In this document: positions 16,681-26,201 of the stretch, one piece after another
Numbering within the stretch: the first letter of the stretch is position 1
Layout: each line of letters starts with the position of its first letter
DNA from: Eggerthellaceae bacterium
Lineage (GTDB): Bacteria; Actinomycetota; Coriobacteriia; Coriobacteriales; Eggerthellaceae
Length of the DNA: 41,835 nt
Direction: 5' to 3'
Assembly: GCA_022644775.1 (NCBI GenBank)
Contig: JALCHN010000014.1
Location: forward strand, 1 to 41,835
Notes under the pieces: generated by a model
Told to the model about the DNA's origin: nothing
What the model saw: only the letters and a program-made list of their open reading frames with translations
Databases searched by the model: none
Translations under genes and position numbers: made by a program

Positions 16681-17079
16681 ATGGGTTATTCCATTGGGTG
16701 CGACGTGATGAGGGAGTCGCGCATCGATTGGTCGTCGTTGTCGGGCGACGACCCGTTCGTTCGGTCTAATTTCAGCTCCGAGGAATGGAGCGCGACATGC
16801 GCTTCGAGCGATCCAGCCCATGCCCGGGCGGCCTCGTTCGCAGCCAAGGAAGCTGTGTTCAAATGCCTGCACCTCGACGACGATTGCGTGCAGGAGCTCG
16901 AAGCGAAGCTTAACAGGCGCATTACCTTCGCCGACCTCGTCGTCGTTCGCGATCGCGCCTGGCCTGCGGTCGCGATAGCCGCCGATCTCTCCCAGGCCCT
17001 CGGCGTCCAGTCGGTCTCTCTCTCCCTTTCGAACGAAGACGGCCTCATCTTCGCTACCGCCCTTGTCGAATGGGTCTAA
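16681..17079 (+). CDS. AcpS-like 4'-phosphopantetheinyl transferase
   Basis: Expected to transfer phosphopantetheine from CoA to a carrier-protein serine. The 132-residue length fits the AcpS family. Both metal-binding positions are present: Asp8 in IGCDVM (usually GTDI) and Glu57 in SFAAKEAVFKCL. The C-terminal beta strand VSLSLSNEDGLIFATALVEW fits the usual hVSISH region, but His is replaced by Asn. The central part is divergent, so this is probably a specialised enzyme rather than the housekeeping AcpS. An acyl carrier protein is encoded 1.8 kb away, beyond the regulator. The stop overlaps that of the convergent PucR gene by 4 bases. Confidence 0.78.
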   Translation: MGYSIGCDVMRESRIDWSSLSGDDPFVRSNFSSEEWSATCASSDPAHARAASFAAKEAVFKCLHLDDDCVQELEAKLNRRITFADLVVVRDRAWPAVAIAADLSQALGVQSVSLSLSNEDGLIFATALVEWV

Positions 17080-18650
17080 TCAAACAAGGGAAGACCGCTG
17101 TCGATGATGCTGAGCGTGAAGGCTGCATCGAGATTGTCATGCCCTGAATAGGGATCGAGATCGAAGAGCTCCTTCATCTTGTTCAGGCGGTAGAAATACG
17201 TATTGCGGTGAATGTTGAGCTTTTCGGAAGCGTGCTTCACGTTTCCCATGCCCTGAAGGTACTCCCTGAGCGTGTCGAGGTAGGCGGTGTGGTGCGTTTC
17301 GTCATGTCGCTTCATCGCGAGAATCCGTTTGTCGAGGAGCGCGTTCACATCGTTGGTTTTCGCGAATTGGATTGCGATAATCTCCGATTTATGGTGCCAC
17401 GTGAAATGCACGGTTGTGCTGAGATGACGTCCTTCGGCAAGCCCAAGAGCCATTCGGTAAGAATCGGCGCAGCGAAGGATGTTTTCGAACGGGTCTCCGA
17501 AGACCGCGGTAAGGGAGTTTCTCTCTATCGTCTCTCTGAGTTCGTTATTGCTAGCAATGCGTTGTTCAAGTTGCCGGTAATAGGGAAACCCCTCTGACTC
17601 TTCCTTGTCGAGGGGAATAAGCACTACGACGATTCCATTGCGCGTTATCCAGGCGCAGTGGGGAACCGCTTTCGAAACGAGTCGTCCAAGATGGGCGTTG
17701 AAGCCTGGCGTGATAAAGGATTCGCTGCCTGAAACCACGCCAGCGGCATACACTCCCGTCGCGTCGAATCCCGCTTCGGACAAGAGCTTTTCTGCGCTCT
17801 TTGAATCGGTGAACTTTCTGTCGATGAGATCGTTGAGAATGCTGGCACCTTGGTTGGCGTAGCTGGTGACGTGGTCGTTTCTGTCAACGATGATGCCGGC
17901 GAGCGCACCTGCGTAGTCGATAAGTTCTAGATCGTAGGCCGTGAAGGGGTGGTCGCTGCCCATAACGTCGAATCGGCCGAGTTCGAGATCTTTGTATCGG
18001 ATGATCGACGTTACCCATTCGATCTCACTGTCTTTTCGGGGGTTCTTCGAGATGTAGGGGCCTTGAATCTCTCGCGCCTTTTCTACGAGCCGGTCCTCCC
18101 GCATTTGGGCGATGTTTTCCTCCAAGGTGTAGCCATTGGCGATTTGGGGGCTGAAATCGTCGCGGTTTGCTTCAAAGTCGCCCGCGGTCGCGAGTATGCG
18201 CTCGTCGGTATCGGCGACGATGATGGGGTTTCCCAGGATGGGAAAAACCCCATGAACGAATTGCTGAATGTTGTAGGTCTGCCTGAAGATATCGAACATG
18301 CGGCTTTTGGATGTTTCCAGCATCGCTTCGTTCTTGATGAGCATGAGAAAGCGTCGTTGAACTTCATAGAAGCTGTAGCGGCTTGTGCAGACAATGACGT
18401 TGGGTGAAGGATGCGCGAGACGTTTGGGAATCTGCGTGTTGACGACCACGAGCAATAAGCCGTTGCGGTGCGTTTTCACCACATTGGAGAATCCGGCTTC
18501 TCCCACCAAGGCGATGCTCCTCGTTGAAACGGCCTGATCGGTGCGGCTCGAGGCAAGCTGCACGCACACGGCATTTTCGTTGAGTAGTGATTGGTTGTAC
18601 AGGGCTATGTCTTGTGCGCCAAGGGCGAAAAGGATGCTGCGGATCTTCAT
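17076..18650 (-). CDS. PucR/CdaR-type transcriptional regulator
   Basis: A 524-residue protein with a C-terminal PucR-type helix-turn-helix (about 465-515: YLQGMGNVKHASEKLNIHRN, then TYFYRLNKMKELF). A central region (about 260-440) resembles the GGDEF-like domain of this family, and the N-terminal half is a likely sensor domain. PucR proteins usually activate catabolic genes in response to the pathway substrate. It is transcribed divergently from the acyl carrier protein operon with a 233-bp shared control region, so that operon is the obvious target. Codon use is less GC-biased than in the his and phe genes, consistent with accessory DNA. Confidence 0.88.
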   Translation of the reverse strand: MKIRSILFALGAQDIALYNQSLLNENAVCVQLASSRTDQAVSTRSIALVGEAGFSNVVKTHRNGLLLVVVNTQIPKRLAHPSPNVIVCTSRYSFYEVQRRFLMLIKNEAMLETSKSRMFDIFRQTYNIQQFVHGVFPILGNPIIVADTDERILATAGDFEANRDDFSPQIANGYTLEENIAQMREDRLVEKAREIQGPYISKNPRKDSEIEWVTSIIRYKDLELGRFDVMGSDHPFTAYDLELIDYAGALAGIIVDRNDHVTSYANQGASILNDLIDRKFTDSKSAEKLLSEAGFDATGVYAAGVVSGSESFITPGFNAHLGRLVSKAVPHCAWITRNGIVVVLIPLDKEESEGFPYYRQLEQRIASNNELRETIERNSLTAVFGDPFENILRCADSYRMALGLAEGRHLSTTVHFTWHHKSEIIAIQFAKTNDVNALLDKRILAMKRHDETHHTAYLDTLREYLQGMGNVKHASEKLNIHRNTYFYRLNKMKELFDLDPYSGHDNLDAAFTLSIIDSGLPLFD

Positions 18651-18883: not shown

Positions 18884-19132
18884 ATGGCAGACGAAAAGCA
18901 ACAGGTAATGGATGCCCTCTGCACCCGCGTTGCGTCTCTGTTCGGCGGGGAGGCTTCCGACTACACCGAAGACACGACGTTCGCGTCTCTCAACATCAAG
19001 TCGGTTCAGTATTCCCAAATCACCACCTACCTCGAGGACGAGTTCGACATCGAGGTTCCTTTCATGAAGTTCCGCCGCAAGAAGACCCTGGGCGAAGCCG
19101 CCGATTACGTCGTTGAGCTCATGGATATGTAA
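18884..19132 (+). CDS. Acyl carrier protein, atypical phosphopantetheine site
   Basis: An 82-residue four-helix carrier protein. Phosphopantetheine would attach at Ser40 in LNIKSVQYSQI, which aligns with the usual GADSLDTVEL of fatty-acid ACP. The Asp before Ser is Lys here, and the recognition-helix acidic residues are replaced. EDEFDIEVPF and the third-helix end TLGEAADYVVEL are typical. A basic cluster FRRKK (72-76 region of the canonical alignment) is unusual for an ACP. GGAAAGGATT precedes the ATG at 18884. The gene leads an operon with a CocE-type hydrolase 36 bases downstream, and an AcpS-like enzyme sits beyond the PucR gene. A specialised acyl-carrier role outside bulk fatty-acid synthesis is inferred. 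Confidence 0.85.
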   Translation: MADEKQQVMDALCTRVASLFGGEASDYTEDTTFASLNIKSVQYSQITTYLEDEFDIEVPFMKFRRKKTLGEAADYVVELMDM

Positions 19133-19168
19133 CTGCGTTCGCATCGATCGCGAGAAGAGGTTGTTTAA

Positions 19169-21043
19169 ATGATCGAACCGAATATCCCCGAAGAGTGGGT
19201 CCGCATCACCGACAAGAAACTTTCTGACCTTATCGCCATGACGGGCGAGAACAAGGACCAGGAAGAGTGTCCGATCTACTTCGACCCCGACACCGAAGGC
19301 TACATCTATCTGCGCAAGGAAGAGTTCGAGGGCGAAGAGATCATGGCGGCCTACCGCGTTGCGCGCCGCCCCAATGACGACCAGGAAGAAGTGGACCTTT
19401 CCACATCCGAAGACCCCATGGCCCGTATGGGCCAGGGTTTCTGCCCGCCCTTCAACCCGCATACCTACGAGGCTGCCCCTGGGGTGCTCTGCATGCAGGA
19501 CCAGGAAGTGGTCATGCGCGACGGCACGAAGATCTACTGCGACATCTATCGCCCGGATACCGAAACGCCGGTTCCGGTGATCGTGTCCTGGTCGTGGTTC
19601 GGCAAGCGCCCGGGAGACGGCATGAGCGAATGGCAGATTATGGGCGTACCGCCTAAAACGGTGTCCAAGTGCGCCAAGTTCGAATCTCCCGACCCCTTGT
19701 ACTGGTGCTACCAGGGCTATGCCGTCGCGAACGTCGACGTGCGCGGCGCCGGCCATTCCGAAGGAAACGTGCACATGTTCACCCATCAGGACCGCCAAGA
19801 CGGCTACGATTTCGTCGAGTGGGCGGCGGCGCAATCCTGGTGCAACGGAAATGTGGGCATGTCGGGTAACTCGGGCGTCGCGATGCACCAGTGGGGCATC
19901 GCCGCAGAATGCCCTCCGCATCTGAAGTGCATCGCCCCATGGGAATCGACCACCGACCTCTACCGTGAGAGCTTCTTCGAAGGCGGTATTCCCGCGCTTT
20001 CCTTCAACAAGTTCATCGCGGCGCAGGTTACCGGCCCCAACGGCGTTGACGACCAGGTGGCAATGGCCAAGATGTACCCGTTCATGAACGCCTACTGGGA
20101 CGACAAGCGCGCCGACTTCACCAAGGTGCGCATCCCCGTCTACCAGACCGCCGGTTGGAGCCATTTCCACCTGCCCGGCTCCTTCAACGCCTTCCGCAAG
20201 TGCAAGAGCCGCCTAAAGTGGATGCGCGCTCACCGCGATTTCGAATGGCCCGATACCTACAATCCGGAGAACCTCGAAGACCTCAAGCGCTTTTACGACC
20301 GCTATCTGAAGGGCATCCACAACGGATGGGAAATGACCCCGCGCGTCCGCCTCGACGTCATGGACGCCTATGATTGCGATTACCAGACGCAGCGAGCCGA
20401 GACGGCCTTCCCGATTCCCGAGCGCACACATTACGAGAAGCTCTACTTTGACGCGGCGGACATCACGCTGAAGACCGCCGCCCCTGCTGAAGCGGCGTCT
20501 GCCTCCTACGATCCTGCCGACGGGCAGCTTGAGTTCGATTACACCGTGCCCGAGGACATGGAAGTGACAGGCTATATGAACCTCCGCTTGTACGTGTCTT
20601 GCGAAGGCCACAATGAGATGGACCTTTTCGTGAACATCCAGAAGGCCGCTGCCGACGGCACTTGGATTCCCTGGTACACGCTCGACGAACCGCATCCGGG
20701 CGCGTGGGGCAAGTGCCGCGTCTCCCGCCGCGAGCTCGACGAGAAGCTATCCAAGAAGCACATCCCCATTCTGTCGAACACCCACGAGGACAAGCTCGAA
20801 GACGGTAAAGTCTATCCGGTCGACATCGCCATCGTCCCCACGAGCCGCGTCTACCACAAGGGTGAGCGCTTCCGCGTGCAGATCGCCGGCCGCTACATTC
20901 GCGAGGGCTGGTTCGAGCCGCTTGCATGGGACACCGACAACGGCGGAACGCACACGGTGCACACCGGTGGCGACACCGCGTCCTATATCGAGATTCCGGT
21001 TGTAGAGCCGCGCTACGTCGCCGGCGACTACGTCCGTCGCTAG
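19169..21043 (+). CDS. CocE/NonD-type alpha/beta hydrolase (S15-like)
   Basis: A 624-residue protein of the X-Pro peptidase / cocaine esterase / acylase superfamily, which cleaves esters or amides. After a 100-residue N-terminal extension come RDGTKIYCDIYRP, PVIVSWSWFGKRPGDG (oxyanion region), VDVRGAGHSEG, and the nucleophile elbow GMSGNSGVAM with Ser235 the likely nucleophile. A C-terminal jelly-roll domain (about 420-620) includes FRVQIAGRYI. The usual Asp in the GWYD or SWSD segment is not evident: the sequence reads GWSHFH (329-334). There is no signal peptide, so it is cytoplasmic. It could free the substrate acid from a conjugate, or act on acyl-ACP. A terminator separates it from buk. 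Confidence 0.85.
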   Translation: MIEPNIPEEWVRITDKKLSDLIAMTGENKDQEECPIYFDPDTEGYIYLRKEEFEGEEIMAAYRVARRPNDDQEEVDLSTSEDPMARMGQGFCPPFNPHTYEAAPGVLCMQDQEVVMRDGTKIYCDIYRPDTETPVPVIVSWSWFGKRPGDGMSEWQIMGVPPKTVSKCAKFESPDPLYWCYQGYAVANVDVRGAGHSEGNVHMFTHQDRQDGYDFVEWAAAQSWCNGNVGMSGNSGVAMHQWGIAAECPPHLKCIAPWESTTDLYRESFFEGGIPALSFNKFIAAQVTGPNGVDDQVAMAKMYPFMNAYWDDKRADFTKVRIPVYQTAGWSHFHLPGSFNAFRKCKSRLKWMRAHRDFEWPDTYNPENLEDLKRFYDRYLKGIHNGWEMTPRVRLDVMDAYDCDYQTQRAETAFPIPERTHYEKLYFDAADITLKTAAPAEAASASYDPADGQLEFDYTVPEDMEVTGYMNLRLYVSCEGHNEMDLFVNIQKAAADGTWIPWYTLDEPHPGAWGKCRVSRRELDEKLSKKHIPILSNTHEDKLEDGKVYPVDIAIVPTSRVYHKGERFRVQIAGRYIREGWFEPLAWDTDNGGTHTVHTGGDTASYIEIPVVEPRYVAGDYVRR

Positions 21044-21054
21044 TTTTGCATGCC

Positions 21055-21090
21055 GCCGTCGGCGCGCATCGTCCCGCGCCGACGGCTTTT
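21055..21090 (+). terminator. Rho-independent terminator between hydrolase and buk
   Basis: GCCGTCGGCGCG (21055-21066) pairs perfectly with CGCGCCGACGGC (21075-21086) around 8 bases, followed by TTTTCT. It probably makes read-through into buk partial. Confidence 0.8.
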
Positions 21091-21107
21091 CTAAGGGAGA
21101 GACTCGT

Positions 21108-22235
21108 ATGGAGGATAGCTACACAATTCTTACGCTCTCGCCAGGGTCGACGTCGACCAAGGTGGCCGTGTTCAGGAATACCCAACAGGTGTTCAAGTCG
21201 AACGTGCGCCACGATCCGGCGGAGCTCGCCCAGTTCGACCAGGCGAAAGAGCAGCTCGACTACCGCATTGCGGCCATCAAGAAGGAGCTCGCTGCGAACA
21301 ACATCGATCTTGCTGACGTCGATGCCTATTCGGGCTATTGCGGCGGCATGGGGCCGACGGTGGGCGGCATTTTCGCAATCGACGACACGGTGTGCGACCA
21401 CGTGCTCAACGGGGGCTTCAACCACCCGGCCATCCTCGGCGCCCCGATTCTGCACTCCTTCGCCCAGGCGCACGGAAAGCCTGCGTTTGCGGTTAACCAG
21501 CCCGATACCGACGAGCTTGCCGACGTGGCGCGCATCACCGGTTATCCGGGCGTCTACCGCAAAAGCCACGTGCATTGCCTGAACCAAAAGGAATGCGCGA
21601 TCCGCTACGCGACCGAAATCGGCCGGTCCTACGACGACGTGAACGTCATCGTCGCCCACGTGGGAGGCGGCCTTTCGGTTGCCGCCCACAACCACGGGCG
21701 CATGACCGACACCAATGACGTGCTTGAAGGCTCGGGCCCGTTCGCGCCCAACCGTTCAGGGGATGTTCCCCTCATGCCGGTTGTGAAGATGTGCTTCGAC
21801 GGTGCGCACGACTTGAAGGAAGTCAAAAACGTCATCGGGAAGACGGGCGGTCTCAAGGGCCTGCTCGGCACTGACGACGCGATGGAAATCGACAAGCGCA
21901 TCGACGCGGGCGACGATTGGGCCGATCTCGTGTTCGACGCGATGGCCTACCAGGTCGGCAAAGCCATCGGCGGCTTTGCCGCGGCTCTCGACGGAAACGT
22001 CGACGGCATTGTCCTTACTGGCGGCGTGAGCAACGACCAGCGGTTCGTTTCGAAGGTGGAACAGCACGTCAGCTGGATTGCCCCGGTGAAGGTCTACGGC
22101 GGCGATTTCGAGATGGAGGCCTTGGCGGCCGGCGCCCTGCGCGCCCTGCGCGGCGACGAGCGCGTCATGGCCTACACGGGGCAGCCTTCGTGGGATGGAT
22201 TCGCGATGGAGGGCGCGATTCCGGCCGTCGAGTAA
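21108..22235 (+). CDS. buk: Butyrate kinase family acyl-phosphate kinase
   Basis: Transfers phosphate from an acyl-phosphate to ADP, giving the free acid and ATP. The 375-residue length and signatures fit Buk rather than acetate kinase: TLSPGSTSTKVAVF at the N-terminus, DELADVARITGYPG, SHVHCLNQK, IVAHVGGGLSVAAHNHGR, EGSGPFAPNRSGDVP and LTGGVSNDQRF. It has the ASKHA fold. Acyl specificity could be butyryl, branched-chain or aryl-propionyl. A phosphotransacylase gene follows after one MFS gene, giving a Ptb/Buk-type route from acyl-CoA to ATP. AAGGGAGAG precedes the ATG. Confidence 0.9.
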   Translation: MEDSYTILTLSPGSTSTKVAVFRNTQQVFKSNVRHDPAELAQFDQAKEQLDYRIAAIKKELAANNIDLADVDAYSGYCGGMGPTVGGIFAIDDTVCDHVLNGGFNHPAILGAPILHSFAQAHGKPAFAVNQPDTDELADVARITGYPGVYRKSHVHCLNQKECAIRYATEIGRSYDDVNVIVAHVGGGLSVAAHNHGRMTDTNDVLEGSGPFAPNRSGDVPLMPVVKMCFDGAHDLKEVKNVIGKTGGLKGLLGTDDAMEIDKRIDAGDDWADLVFDAMAYQVGKAIGGFAAALDGNVDGIVLTGGVSNDQRFVSKVEQHVSWIAPVKVYGGDFEMEALAAGALRALRGDERVMAYTGQPSWDGFAMEGAIPAVE

Positions 22236-22248
22236 CTTTGCTACCTAC

Positions 22249-22311
22249 GCTCGTGGGCCCGAACAGGTCGAACGGAAGGGCCCACGAGCTTCGAGCTCGA
22301 TTCCCGAGCTC
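22249..22311 (+). other. Two consecutive hairpins between buk and the MFS gene
   Basis: GCTCGTGGGCCC (22249-22260) pairs with GGGCCCACGAGC (22278-22289), a perfect 12-bp stem with a 17-base loop. GAGCTCG (22293-22299) then pairs with CGAGCTC (22305-22311), with CTTCATTTTA after it. They may attenuate or stabilise the transcript. Confidence 0.55.
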
Positions 22312-22374
22312 CTTCATTTTACTTGGTACAGAAGGGAGAATGCGCATTCTGCACAAGGGATGCGCGACCATACC

Positions 22375-23697
22375 ATGGCACAGAAGGAACATACCTGGAT
22401 TCCCAACCTGGGTGCGAAAGGTTGGGGCATCACCTTTATCTGCATCTGCTTCTATTTCTTCTACAACTTCTGGAACAACGCCTCGAATACGCTCTTCGGC
22501 GTACTGACCGGCATGTATGGCTGGGAAACCACCCAGATGTCGTTCATCGTCACGCTCGGCGGCTGGTGCTCGCTGCTCGGCATCATCGTCTTCGGTGTAA
22601 TCGGCCGCAAAGTGGGCGCCAAGAACGTGAGCATCATCGGCCTTATCGGCAGCATCATCGCATTCGTGATTTTGGCCACCATGTCGAACTTCACCATGTT
22701 TGCGGTGGGAACCTTGCTGTTCTACGTCACGATGGTCGGTTACGCGGTCATCGGCCTGGGCAAGTTCGGGTCCGAATGGTTCCCTCACAAGAAGGGCGTG
22801 TTCATGGGCTTCGCGACCATGGGCATGACGATTTGCGGCGCTATGATCAACCCGGTCATCCTCGCCTGCGCCGGCTCTTCTGCGGGTATCAGCAGTCTGT
22901 TCTGGGGCCTAGCCGTTTTCTGCGCGATCGTCATCGTGCTCATCGCCGCCTTTGCGAAAAACACGCCTGAAGAGGCCGGTGCCTTCCCCGACAACGACCG
23001 CTCCATCACCCGCGAGGCTCTTATGGCCGAGGCCAAGGCGGCTGAAGAGTACAAGAAGAACAGCCCCTGGACGATTCAGAAAGTGCTGAAGACCAAGGAG
23101 ACCTGGCTTATCGGCATCGGCTGGGGCCTTTCGATGCTGGCTGCCTCCGGCGTGATGGCGCTGCTCGTTCCGACGCTGGCTTCCTACGACCATGACCCGG
23201 TGAGCATCGTTGCCCTGCTGGCGTCCATGTGGCCCATGGGCCTGCTCGGCCACTACCTGATCGGCGTTATCGACCAGAAGATCGGCACCAAGAAGACGAC
23301 GGTCTTTGTCGTCGTGCTGCAGATGGTCGACTTCCTGTGCATCGCCTTCTTCGGCGGCAATTACGCCGTGTGCGCGATCGCTATCGGCCTGCTCATGTTC
23401 GCCATCTCCGGCAACGCCAACGTCTGCATGTCCATGACCACGTCGGTGTTCGGCCGCGCCGACTTCGAAATGGCGTGGACCCCTATTCAGGTCATCTACA
23501 ACATCTGCAACTTCTCGGGCGTGACGGTCATCGCCCTCATCACGGCAAGCTTCGGGCCGCATGCCGTCATGATCGGCGCTGCGCTCATCTGCCTCGTCTC
23601 GCTCGTCTTCATTGGGCTGTGCAGCGACAAGCAGATCGGAAGCCAGATTGGTGCTGCCAAGCAGGGCGATGGCGCTCCTGCCGTGACGGCGCAATAA
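22375..23697 (+). CDS. MFS transporter (unit A)
   Basis: A 440-residue membrane protein with about 12 hydrophobic segments in two halves and a charged cytoplasmic loop (about 200-235) between them. The first helix is ICICFYFFYNFWNN. The loop between helices 2 and 3 has GVIGRKVGAKN, a form of the MFS motif A. It probably imports the substrate or exports the acid product; direction and substrate are unknown. The start is uncertain: ATG 22375 begins a normal MFS N-terminus, while ATG 22360 would add five residues (MRDHT); AAGGGA lies between 22354 and 22359. A similar but distinct MFS gene sits in unit B. Confidence 0.85.
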   Translation: MAQKEHTWIPNLGAKGWGITFICICFYFFYNFWNNASNTLFGVLTGMYGWETTQMSFIVTLGGWCSLLGIIVFGVIGRKVGAKNVSIIGLIGSIIAFVILATMSNFTMFAVGTLLFYVTMVGYAVIGLGKFGSEWFPHKKGVFMGFATMGMTICGAMINPVILACAGSSAGISSLFWGLAVFCAIVIVLIAAFAKNTPEEAGAFPDNDRSITREALMAEAKAAEEYKKNSPWTIQKVLKTKETWLIGIGWGLSMLAASGVMALLVPTLASYDHDPVSIVALLASMWPMGLLGHYLIGVIDQKIGTKKTTVFVVVLQMVDFLCIAFFGGNYAVCAIAIGLLMFAISGNANVCMSMTTSVFGRADFEMAWTPIQVIYNICNFSGVTVIALITASFGPHAVMIGAALICLVSLVFIGLCSDKQIGSQIGAAKQGDGAPAVTAQ

Positions 23698-23728
23698 CCA
23701 GCACGTACTCGAATAGGTGGGACACAAC

Positions 23729-24730
23729 ATGTCAGGACTTATCAACAAGCTGATTTCCGAGGCGAAGCAGCAACCTAAGAACATAGCCATTCCCGAGGCG
23801 ACCGATCGTGACACGCTTGTGCTTGCGCGCAGAATCGTCGACGAAGGCATGGGAACGCCCTTCCTTATCGGTGAGCGCGCCCAAATCGAAGAAGCAGCGC
23901 AGGACGCAGGCGTCTCGCTCGAGGGGATGCGTTTTGAAGATGTGGCCGATGAAAGTGCACGCTTCGAAGTGGTCGACCGCTACCTGCAAGAGCCGCGCAT
24001 GATCTCATTGAAAGGATGTCGCCGCCGTTCGAAGGACCCGCTCAACTACGCGATGATGCTCGAGGCCGTGGGCGACGTCGACTGCACCTTCGCCGGCCAT
24101 GTGGCTACCACTGGCGAGGTTCTCATGGCGGCTCAGAATTTCATCGGCTTGAAAGACGGCGTCGATACGCCTTCAATCATGGCGATTGTCGAAGTGGAGG
24201 GCTTTGACGGCCCCGAAGGCGACACAATCGTGTTTGCCGATTGCGGTTTGAACCCAGAACCCGATGCGGAAGCTCTTGCGTCCATCGCTATCGCGACCGC
24301 CGATCAAGCGGAAGCGGTTCTGGGATGGGACCCCCGCGTAGCGTTCCTCTCGTTCTCGACGAAGGGGTCGGGGACGTCCGCGAGCACTGAGACCATCGAA
24401 GCCGCTTTGAAAGTCGCCCGTGAACGCCGCTCCGATCTGAAGATCGACGGCGAGTTCCAGCTCGATGCGGCGATTGTCCCTCGGGTTGCCGAGCGCAAGG
24501 TGAAAGCTCCTTCCGACGTGGCGGGAAAGGCGAACGTGCTTATCTTCCCCGACCTCGATGCCGCAAACATCGCGATAAAGACCGTGCAGCTCTTTGCGCA
24601 TGGAAACGGCTACGGCCATACGCTTTCAGGTTTTAACAAGCCGGTGAGCGATTCGTCCCGCAATTCGTCGGTTGAAGAGATGTTGGGCGATATTGCCATG
24701 CTCGTGCTGGCGGCATCACGTTCCAAATAG
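23729..24730 (+). CDS. Phosphotransacylase (phosphate acetyl/butyryltransferase family)
   Basis: Exchanges CoA for phosphate on an acyl-CoA, giving acyl-phosphate. The 333-residue protein has the Pta/Ptb core: AIPEATDRDTLVLARRI, FLSFSTKGSG, DGEFQLDAAIVPRVAERK, DVAGKANVLIFPDLDAANI and KPVSDSSRNSSVEE. The sequence reads closer to Pta than to classical Ptb, but the neighbouring kinase is Buk-like, so the substrate is probably not simply acetyl-CoA. With Buk it would recover ATP from the product acyl-CoA of unit B. It follows the MFS gene by 31 bases. Confidence 0.87.
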   Translation: MSGLINKLISEAKQQPKNIAIPEATDRDTLVLARRIVDEGMGTPFLIGERAQIEEAAQDAGVSLEGMRFEDVADESARFEVVDRYLQEPRMISLKGCRRRSKDPLNYAMMLEAVGDVDCTFAGHVATTGEVLMAAQNFIGLKDGVDTPSIMAIVEVEGFDGPEGDTIVFADCGLNPEPDAEALASIAIATADQAEAVLGWDPRVAFLSFSTKGSGTSASTETIEAALKVARERRSDLKIDGEFQLDAAIVPRVAERKVKAPSDVAGKANVLIFPDLDAANIAIKTVQLFAHGNGYGHTLSGFNKPVSDSSRNSSVEEMLGDIAMLVLAASRSK

Positions 24731-24829
24731 CTGTTCCTCTGTCCGGCGGCGCGCCTCCCGTCTCCCTTTTTACCTCCTGGGATTCGGCGGGCGCACCGTT
24801 CGGCCTTTTCTGTAAGGTCTGGTAGCACC

Positions 24830-25807
24830 ATGAATGATTTCGACGCGCTCAGGCGCATTGTTCCCTCCATTCGGGAGGCAACCGAAGACGCGATTGGCGA
24901 ATGCGCTCCCTTTGCGGGTCGTGAGCTCTCCGTCGCTCGCGACGGCGTTCCCGCTCCCGCGTTCTGGTATCCGATTGCGTCCGAAAGCGCGCCGCTGGTG
25001 ATTTATCTGCATGGCGGCGGTTTCGCATTCGGGGATTGCCGGAAGTCGGATGCCTTGATGGCCTGGACGGCGCGTGCCTATGGCGTTGCGATGCTCGGTG
25101 TGAACTACCGTCTTGCGCCCGAACATCCCTTTCCGTCTGCCTTGCACGACGTGGCGGATACGGTCGAATGGTGCGCCGACCATGCCGCAAAACTCGGCAT
25201 CGATCCTGCGCGCATCTATCTGCTTGGGTTCAGTGCGGGCGCCGACCTCGCATTTGCGAGCGCACTGCTGCTTCGTCGCGAGCACAGCTTCGCTCTTGCG
25301 GGGATTATCGCCCATTATCCCTTCCTCGACTGCGCAACGGATCCCCAAAGCAAGGGAGGCCGCGAAATAGATTTGCCAGGCGAGCTGACTCAGGCTTTCA
25401 ACGCATGGTATGTGAGCGGCTGCGACCCCGCTGACGCTCTGCTGTCGCCTGTGTATGCCAAGACAGACGAGATTGCCCTTCTTCCCCCGTGCGCCATCGT
25501 CCCTGTTGTGGGGGATTCACTGTTCGACGAGGCCAAGCTCATGGCCGACAAACTGGTCGAAGCCGGTGTTCCGTGCGCGTTCCAGGGCATCGAGGGGGCC
25601 TACCACGGCTACATTGAAGACGCTGCAAATCCGGCGGTGTATGCGGCCGTTGAAATGCCTGAAACGATTGCGGCCCGCCCGAAGAACTACTACGCAATTG
25701 CCGGTATGGCGTACGAAGCGAGCCTCCAGCGGTTTTTCAAGCGTCTGCCCGGTATAGGGCCGTTTCCGGGATTCACGAGAGGGGCGCAGGATGTGCCCGT
25801 GGAATAA
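24830..25807 (+). CDS. HSL-family alpha/beta hydrolase (esterase)
   Basis: A 325-residue hydrolase of the hormone-sensitive-lipase type. The oxyanion motif HGGGF starts at His61, followed by VNYRLAPEHPFP. The nucleophile Ser135 is in GFSAGAD, the acid Asp229 in VVGDSLFDEA, and the base His259 in GAYHGYIED, so the full triad is present. There is no signal peptide, so it acts inside the cell on a small acyl ester. It is the second hydrolase of unit A and, unlike the CocE-type protein, looks catalytically complete. The next gene overlaps its end by 17 bases. Confidence 0.9.
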   Translation: MNDFDALRRIVPSIREATEDAIGECAPFAGRELSVARDGVPAPAFWYPIASESAPLVIYLHGGGFAFGDCRKSDALMAWTARAYGVAMLGVNYRLAPEHPFPSALHDVADTVEWCADHAAKLGIDPARIYLLGFSAGADLAFASALLLRREHSFALAGIIAHYPFLDCATDPQSKGGREIDLPGELTQAFNAWYVSGCDPADALLSPVYAKTDEIALLPPCAIVPVVGDSLFDEAKLMADKLVEAGVPCAFQGIEGAYHGYIEDAANPAVYAAVEMPETIAARPKNYYAIAGMAYEASLQRFFKRLPGIGPFPGFTRGAQDVPVE

Positions 25808-26201
25808 ATGGACGATTCTTCAGGACCTCGTGTTGGCGGTGGTCATCAACACATCGGCGATGGCCCTTTCGGGCGCGCCGTTCAGCATTGCCTCGTGGTT
25901 CCCAGGGACGAGCACCGCCTTTTGCACGAACGTCCTCCTGCAGCTCGTATTGCCGGTGCCCGCTGCGGGTAGGGCGGCAAGCGGGTGTGTGGAAGGCCGT
26001 TCGTGGCGTCCCGTGCTTTCGGTGTTCGTTGAGAACCTGATTTTCGTGACGCTCATCTCTCTCACGATGGCCTATATGCAGACCGAAGGAGCGCACCTGT
26101 TGAAGGTGTGGCTTGCCACCTACCCTCAGCTCGTATGCATCGGCTACGCGACGTCGCTCGTGCTGTTCGCGGTAGGGAATAGACGGACGTTCAAGGGATA
26201 G
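25791..26201 (+). CDS. Small membrane protein of unknown function
   Basis: A 136-residue protein with about four hydrophobic segments: roughly 9-28 (QDLVLAVVINTSAMALSG), 40-58, 75-95 (VFVENLIFVTLISLTMAYM) and 107-128 (LVCIGYATSLVLFAV). The ATG lies inside the end of the esterase gene (17-base overlap), with GAGAGGGG upstream, so the two are translationally coupled. I recognise no family. It could assist one of the carriers or anchor an enzyme; neither is shown by the sequence. A terminator follows the gene. Confidence 0.7.
   Translation: MCPWNKWTILQDLVLAVVINTSAMALSGAPFSIASWFPGTSTAFCTNVLLQLVLPVPAAGRAASGCVEGRSWRPVLSVFVENLIFVTLISLTMAYMQTEGAHLLKVWLATYPQLVCIGYATSLVLFAVGNRRTFKG

Follow-up and report, generated by a model that had tools for sequence, protein, structure and literature searches.

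The window, by which we mean the whole 41,835-nucleotide stretch of Eggerthellaceae DNA analysed here, contains a close-packed row of plus-strand genes (18884-26201) encoding an acyl carrier protein (ACP), a CocE/NonD hydrolase, butyrate kinase, an MFS transporter, a phosphotransacetylase-family enzyme (PTA), an esterase and a small membrane protein. The stand-alone ACP (18884-19132, plus strand) comes first, in agreement with the first-pass annotation, which had placed it at the head of an operon. It is followed by the CocE/NonD alpha/beta-hydrolase (19169-21043, plus strand; Pfam Peptidase_S15 and PepX_C), a proposed acyltransferase to the ACP, and by a terminator-like hairpin of 12 pairs, 11 of them G-C, ending in TTTTC (21055-21086, plus strand; a consensus match only), which separates the ACP-hydrolase pair from the butyrate kinase gene. 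The product of the latter (21108-22235, plus strand) scores 385 bits against the butyrate kinase equivalog TIGR02707 (cut-off 289) and thus belongs to a family that interconverts acyl phosphate plus ADP and acid plus ATP. The remaining genes, all on the plus strand, encode the MFS transporter (22321-23697, start uncertain; MFS_1, 95 bits), the PTA (23717-24730; PTA_PTB, PF01515, 268 bits), the esterase of the Abhydrolase_3 or hormone-sensitive-lipase type (24830-25807; 162 bits) and the small conserved membrane-like protein (25791-26201); both the esterase and the small protein recur beside the module described below.

Upstream of the row lie a gene for a small, divergent AcpS-type 4'-phosphopantetheinyl transferase (PPTase; 16681-17079, plus strand), the proposed dedicated activator of the ACP, and a PucR-type regulator transcribed divergently from the operon (17076-18650, minus strand; Pfam HTH_30, 50.1 bits, and GGDEF_2, 30.5 bits). 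PucR-type genes are recurrent at related loci. Downstream, the segment 27167-37126 carries genes for a CoA-transferase III, two 2-hydroxyacyl-CoA dehydratase-like subunits and a further MFS protein, together with an acyl-CoA dehydrogenase-like gene, a BadF-type activator gene and ligase-like genes. The last genes of this segment have homologues that adjoin a CocE module at another locus (L034). Rfam and tRNA scans of the whole window returned no matches.

The ACP is encoded by an 82-aa open reading frame with an AAAGGA ribosome-binding site upstream of the ATG at 18884, so that a longer frame starting at a TTG is not needed. The protein matches Pfam PP-binding (PF00550) at 29.7 bits (cut-off 20.8), which bears out its identification as an ACP, and its Ser40 aligns with Ser36 of AcpP from E. 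coli, which served as the numbering reference here, as did AcpS of B. subtilis for the PPTases below. Ser40 is the predicted attachment site of the phosphopantetheine. The residue directly before it is Lys39, within the motif NIKSVQ, and KSV thus replaces the DSL of fatty-acid ACPs; the corresponding equivalog, TIGR00517, is matched with only 22.1 bits (cut-off 70.45), and a separate DSL-type ACP is present elsewhere in the genome. Relative to AcpP, residues D35, D38, E41 and D56 are changed to K, Q, Q and F, respectively, and most acidic residues of the surface contacted by AcpS are gone. The acidic AcpP positions E47/E48/E49/D51/E53 are retained as EDEFDIE, and distal helix II is still acidic (LEDEFD). 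Thus, the first-pass statement that the helix after the serine lacks acidic residues holds for the first turns of helix II, where D35, D38 and E41 are lost, and fails for the remainder. The basic stretch FRRKK that it had also pointed out was found at residues 63-67.

The replacement of Asp-Ser by Lys-Ser, noted from the window sequence, is a feature of the whole group: the residue before the serine is Lys in 32 and Arg in 1 of the 33 module ACPs, whereas 26 of the 29 other carrier proteins that these genomes contributed have Asp at this site. At AcpP positions 35, 38, 41, 48 and 56, the AcpS-contact sites of the AcpS-ACP complex, the net charge is 0 in the module ACPs versus -3.7 in the other carrier proteins. 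In the PPTases, the ACP-contact helix (B. subtilis AcpS residues 10-25) has a mean charge of -1.5 in the module enzymes (n=15) versus +1.9 in housekeeping AcpS (n=17), with a Mann-Whitney p of about 2e-6 that is only indicative, the compared rows being related. One of the 17 control rows (L107) was mis-read and counted as 0, and the real contrast is therefore slightly larger. Most of the 15 module enzymes carry a D-P-F motif; in the enzyme of the window, SGDDPF occupies the site of the basic residues of housekeeping AcpS, and helix alpha1 has a charge of -2. This protein exceeds the cut-off of the Pfam ACPS superfamily (35.4 versus 25 bits), falls below that of the holo-ACP synthase equivalog TIGR00516 (36 versus 59.8 bits), and keeps the metal and catalytic residues, D8 and AAKEAVFK with the KE motif, in the alignment with B. 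subtilis AcpS. The charge of the module ACPs has thus shifted one way and that of the module PPTases the other, which is what a dedicated pair would be expected to show.

A divergent PPTase gene is located next to the module in all 7 clostridial loci and within 8 kb of it in 12 of 20 coriobacterial genomes; in the other 8, no PPTase gene was found within this distance on the contig that carries the module. Furthermore, in several coriobacterial genomes (L074 among them) a different type of PPTase is found in the neighbourhood. Since the type of the neighbour varies, the pairing is with a divergent PPTase, not always the same one.

The Lys-Ser ACP, the CocE/NonD hydrolase, the divergent AcpS-type PPTase, the PTA and butyrate kinase make up a module that is conserved in Coriobacteriia and Clostridia. 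The closest ACPs elsewhere, 55-60% identical, come from Clostridium, other Clostridiales, 'Eubacterium' and Ruminococcaceae, and at all seven loci of the closest clostridial-type ACPs, the genes for the hydrolase, PPTase, PTA and butyrate kinase are all found beside that of the ACP. In five clostridial loci (L010-L014, for example L010:9992-12490), the hydrolase carries two tandem ACP domains at its N-terminus as a natural fusion. A hydrolase homologue with E <= 1e-60 was detected in 52 of 396 sampled Coriobacteriia genomes, and the ACP gene is adjacent or within the same short gene row in 30 of the 38 hydrolase loci read, although these counts are not frequencies because the search tools sampled genomes and loci unevenly. 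For comparison, if about 4 ACP genes per 2 Mb are assumed, chance alone would place a carrier protein gene no more than 2 kb away from any given gene in roughly 1% of genomes. At six loci (L072-L076 and L095), neither a PTA nor a kinase of the CocE-type module was found within the stretch read.

In a maximum-likelihood tree, the 30 ACP-linked hydrolases form one branch (support 99/97), and the 8 homologues outside it have no nearby ACP. The ACP-free sister clade, whose members mostly lie beside a TetR-type gene (L082, L083, L087-L090 and L096), is a natural control for what the ACP adds. Within the family to which the window belongs, strong matches to the ACP occur in G000, G098, G017, G063 and G101, exactly the genomes in which a hydrolase of the ACP clade was found. 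The first-pass annotation had suggested that the ACP is served by its own partners, and the genomic data support this: a single CocE clade, five fusions, a nearby divergent PPTase and charge-complementary surfaces. Its choice of the enzyme at 16681-17079 and the CocE-type hydrolase as those partners also proved right, judging from co-occurrence, fusion and proximity of the PPTase. Altogether, there is good support for a partnership between the ACP, the hydrolase and the PPTase, which we hold to be very probable.

The hydrolase scores 230 bits against the CocE/NonD subfamily model TIGR00976 (cut-off 66.3), and its nearest solved structure is 3ib3. A nucleophile-type Ser235 (in GNSG) and His355 are invariant in 38 homologues. 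Residues 325-362 include an HFH segment, with H332 present in 37 of the 38, and an invariant EWPD after His355. The HFH segment presumably corresponds to the region of the catalytic Asp of cocaine esterase, and it is possible that the clade has an altered catalytic triad. AlphaFold2 models of the hydrolase (pLDDT 45) and of the fusion of two ACP domains with the hydrolase (pLDDT 51) were built from alignments that were too shallow, and the latter yields no docking; because the models are too poor, we make no claim on the active site or docking.

The PTA of the module also departs from its housekeeping relatives. The protein of the window falls below the cut-off of the phosphate acetyltransferase equivalog TIGR00651 (235 versus 311 bits) and lacks the equivalents of R87 and R133 of Methanosarcina thermophila Pta, keeping S309 and R310. 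Among 28 module PTAs, R87 is missing in 27 and R133 in all, whereas the catalytic S309 and R310 are kept throughout; the housekeeping Pta of the genome retains all four residues. In Methanosarcina Pta, the two arginines form a second CoA site, and in characterised Ptas, their mutation alters mainly the Km, the arginines being dispensable for catalysis (PMC6461089). The loss of R87 and R133 is consistent with a substrate that lacks the CoA nucleotide. In PlsX of the same genome, an acyl-ACP enzyme, the R133 column likewise holds no Arg. However, a Ptb-like enzyme (L160) also lacks R133, so that the arginine loss is not confined to ACP-using enzymes and is consistent with ACP use, not diagnostic of it. 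In addition to the two divergent PTA/kinase pairs, the genome encodes, on another contig, a canonical Pta and AckA (409 and 510 bits, respectively), so that the module copies are extra.

A second, parallel module was found on another contig of the same genome (C36 of G000; L036:9968-15936). It consists of a thiolase, a DUF35/zf-ChsH2 protein, an ACP (GGSMNM), a PTA and butyrate kinase; a fusion of an AcpT-like PPTase and a TetR-type regulator is encoded upstream. In six related loci (L073-L075 and L093-L095), this second module, whole or in part, adjoins the ACP-hydrolase pair. Relatives of the thiolase with solved structures include PhlC, although 7yvy and the benzoylsuccinyl-CoA thiolase score higher. 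Genes for flavodoxin-like and vinylphenol-reductase-like FAD enzymes are recurrent neighbours of the modules, and plant phenolics are a plausible, albeit unproven, substrate class. At two loci, a C-glycoside deglycosidase beta subunit and its TIM-barrel partner are encoded a few kb from the ACP-hydrolase module (L008:4519-5916 and L009:5818-7218).

Taken together, we favour, with modest confidence, a catabolic relay in which the ACP acts as a dedicated carrier and the acyl group passes from the substrate to an ACP thioester, then to an acyl phosphate and finally yields ATP. In this scheme, the AcpS-type PPTase of the operon (16681-17079) would attach phosphopantetheine to Ser40, the Lys/Arg-rich face of the ACP and the acidic helix of the PPTase forming a matched pair apart from the housekeeping fatty-acid ACP and AcpS. 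The CocE/NonD hydrolase would form an acyl-serine with the acyl group of an imported substrate, an aryl or alkyl ester or an activated ketone, and transfer this group to the thiol of the ACP rather than to water. The PTA-family enzyme would then phosphorolyse the acyl-ACP to an acyl phosphate, which butyrate kinase would use to make ATP, releasing the free acid. That a general acyl relay is at work is argued most strongly by the finding that two unrelated types of acyl-cleaving enzyme, the hydrolase and the thiolase, are each accompanied by an ACP, a PTA and butyrate kinase. While the gene composition, its conservation, the fusions, the restriction to one clade, the complementary charges and the missing CoA-site arginines of the PTA are observed, the phosphopantetheinylation, the acyl transfer to the ACP, the direction of the relay and the substrate are inferred. 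A broader and more tentative proposal is that gut anaerobes perform ACP-dependent substrate-level phosphorylation, in which the hydrolase or the thiolase/DUF35 pair might move the acyl group of dietary aromatic esters or acyl-phenols to the Lys-Ser ACP for ATP formation. Energy that hydrolysis or C-C cleavage normally wastes would in this way be conserved.

The PTA and kinase reactions being reversible, gene content does not fix the direction of the relay, and the same genes could run it backwards: butyrate kinase and the PTA would load an organic acid onto the ACP at the expense of ATP, and the CocE enzyme would acylate a metabolite or envelope component. All the enzymes are reversible in principle, the gene set would be identical, and a dedicated ACP is typical of biosynthesis. 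However, a transporter, an esterase and a PucR-type regulator, of a kind that usually controls catabolic genes, travel with the module, and no recurrent glycosyltransferase or synthase was seen in the loci read, so that we consider the reverse direction unlikely. We judge rather unlikely, too, that the ACP tethers a substrate, with the kinase and PTA loading an acid, flavin reductases acting on it and the CocE enzyme releasing the product as a thioesterase. Such a role would account for the flavodoxin-like and FAD-dependent reductases recurring beside the modules, but hydrolases of the sister clade function with no ACP nearby, and in the second module, the ACP, PTA and kinase are paired with a C-C cleaving type of thiolase, not with a thioesterase.

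Finally, the protein could be an ordinary second ACP of fatty-acid or lipid synthesis that lies in the operon by chance and is served by the housekeeping AcpS, given that it matches the general ACP models and that all the genomes have several ACPs. This we regard as very improbable, because the fatty-acid ACP equivalog is missed by a wide gap (22 versus 70.45 bits), Lys precedes the serine throughout the clade, the ACP is inherited together with the hydrolase, in some loci as a fusion protein, and the genome has its separate DSL-type ACP.

A widespread module that links hydrolase action with ATP formation by way of an ACP would, if true, account for the ability of these anaerobes to live on acylated compounds. 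It would also provide an orthogonal ACP/PPTase pair for engineering and a function for many genes annotated merely as 'CocE/NonD hydrolase'. No description of such a module was found in a search of the open-licence literature.

To our knowledge, nearly all known carrier proteins serve biosynthesis, and there are few catabolic exceptions, such as those of citrate lyase and malonate decarboxylase. In these systems, CitD and MdcC are small dedicated ACPs that carry an acyl thioester during substrate breakdown and, in this respect, resemble the ACP described here as part of a catabolic enzyme system. They differ in their prosthetic group, a phosphoribosyl-dephospho-CoA moiety for which they have attachment enzymes of their own, and in not feeding a PTA/kinase pair, whereas the partners in the module are an AcpS-type PPTase, a CocE hydrolase, a PTA and butyrate kinase; in a general scan of the neighbours, no lyase or prosthetic-group genes of citrate lyase or malonate decarboxylase were recognised. 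The step proposed for the module PTA, acyl-ACP plus phosphate to acyl phosphate, is that of PlsX, with which it shares the missing Arg at the R133 column, although PlsX is of another subfamily and serves phospholipid synthesis, the module enzyme being of the PTA_PTB family. Cocaine esterase and 3IB3 of S. aureus belong to the same family as the hydrolase, which keeps their Ser and His positions but differs from cocaine esterase in having a His in the Asp segment and in belonging to a clade tied or fused to an ACP. PhlACB of 2,4-diacetylphloroglucinol resembles the second module, in that PhlC is related to its thiolase and both have a small Zn-ribbon/OB partner, but the relationship is distant and the biosynthetic cluster includes no ACP, PTA or kinase. 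The sequence from thioester to acyl phosphate to ATP is shared with Pta-AckA, Ptb-Buk and glycine reductase; the former two use CoA and the last a protein-bound selenium/sulfur intermediate, whereas for the module we propose a dedicated phosphopantetheinyl ACP.
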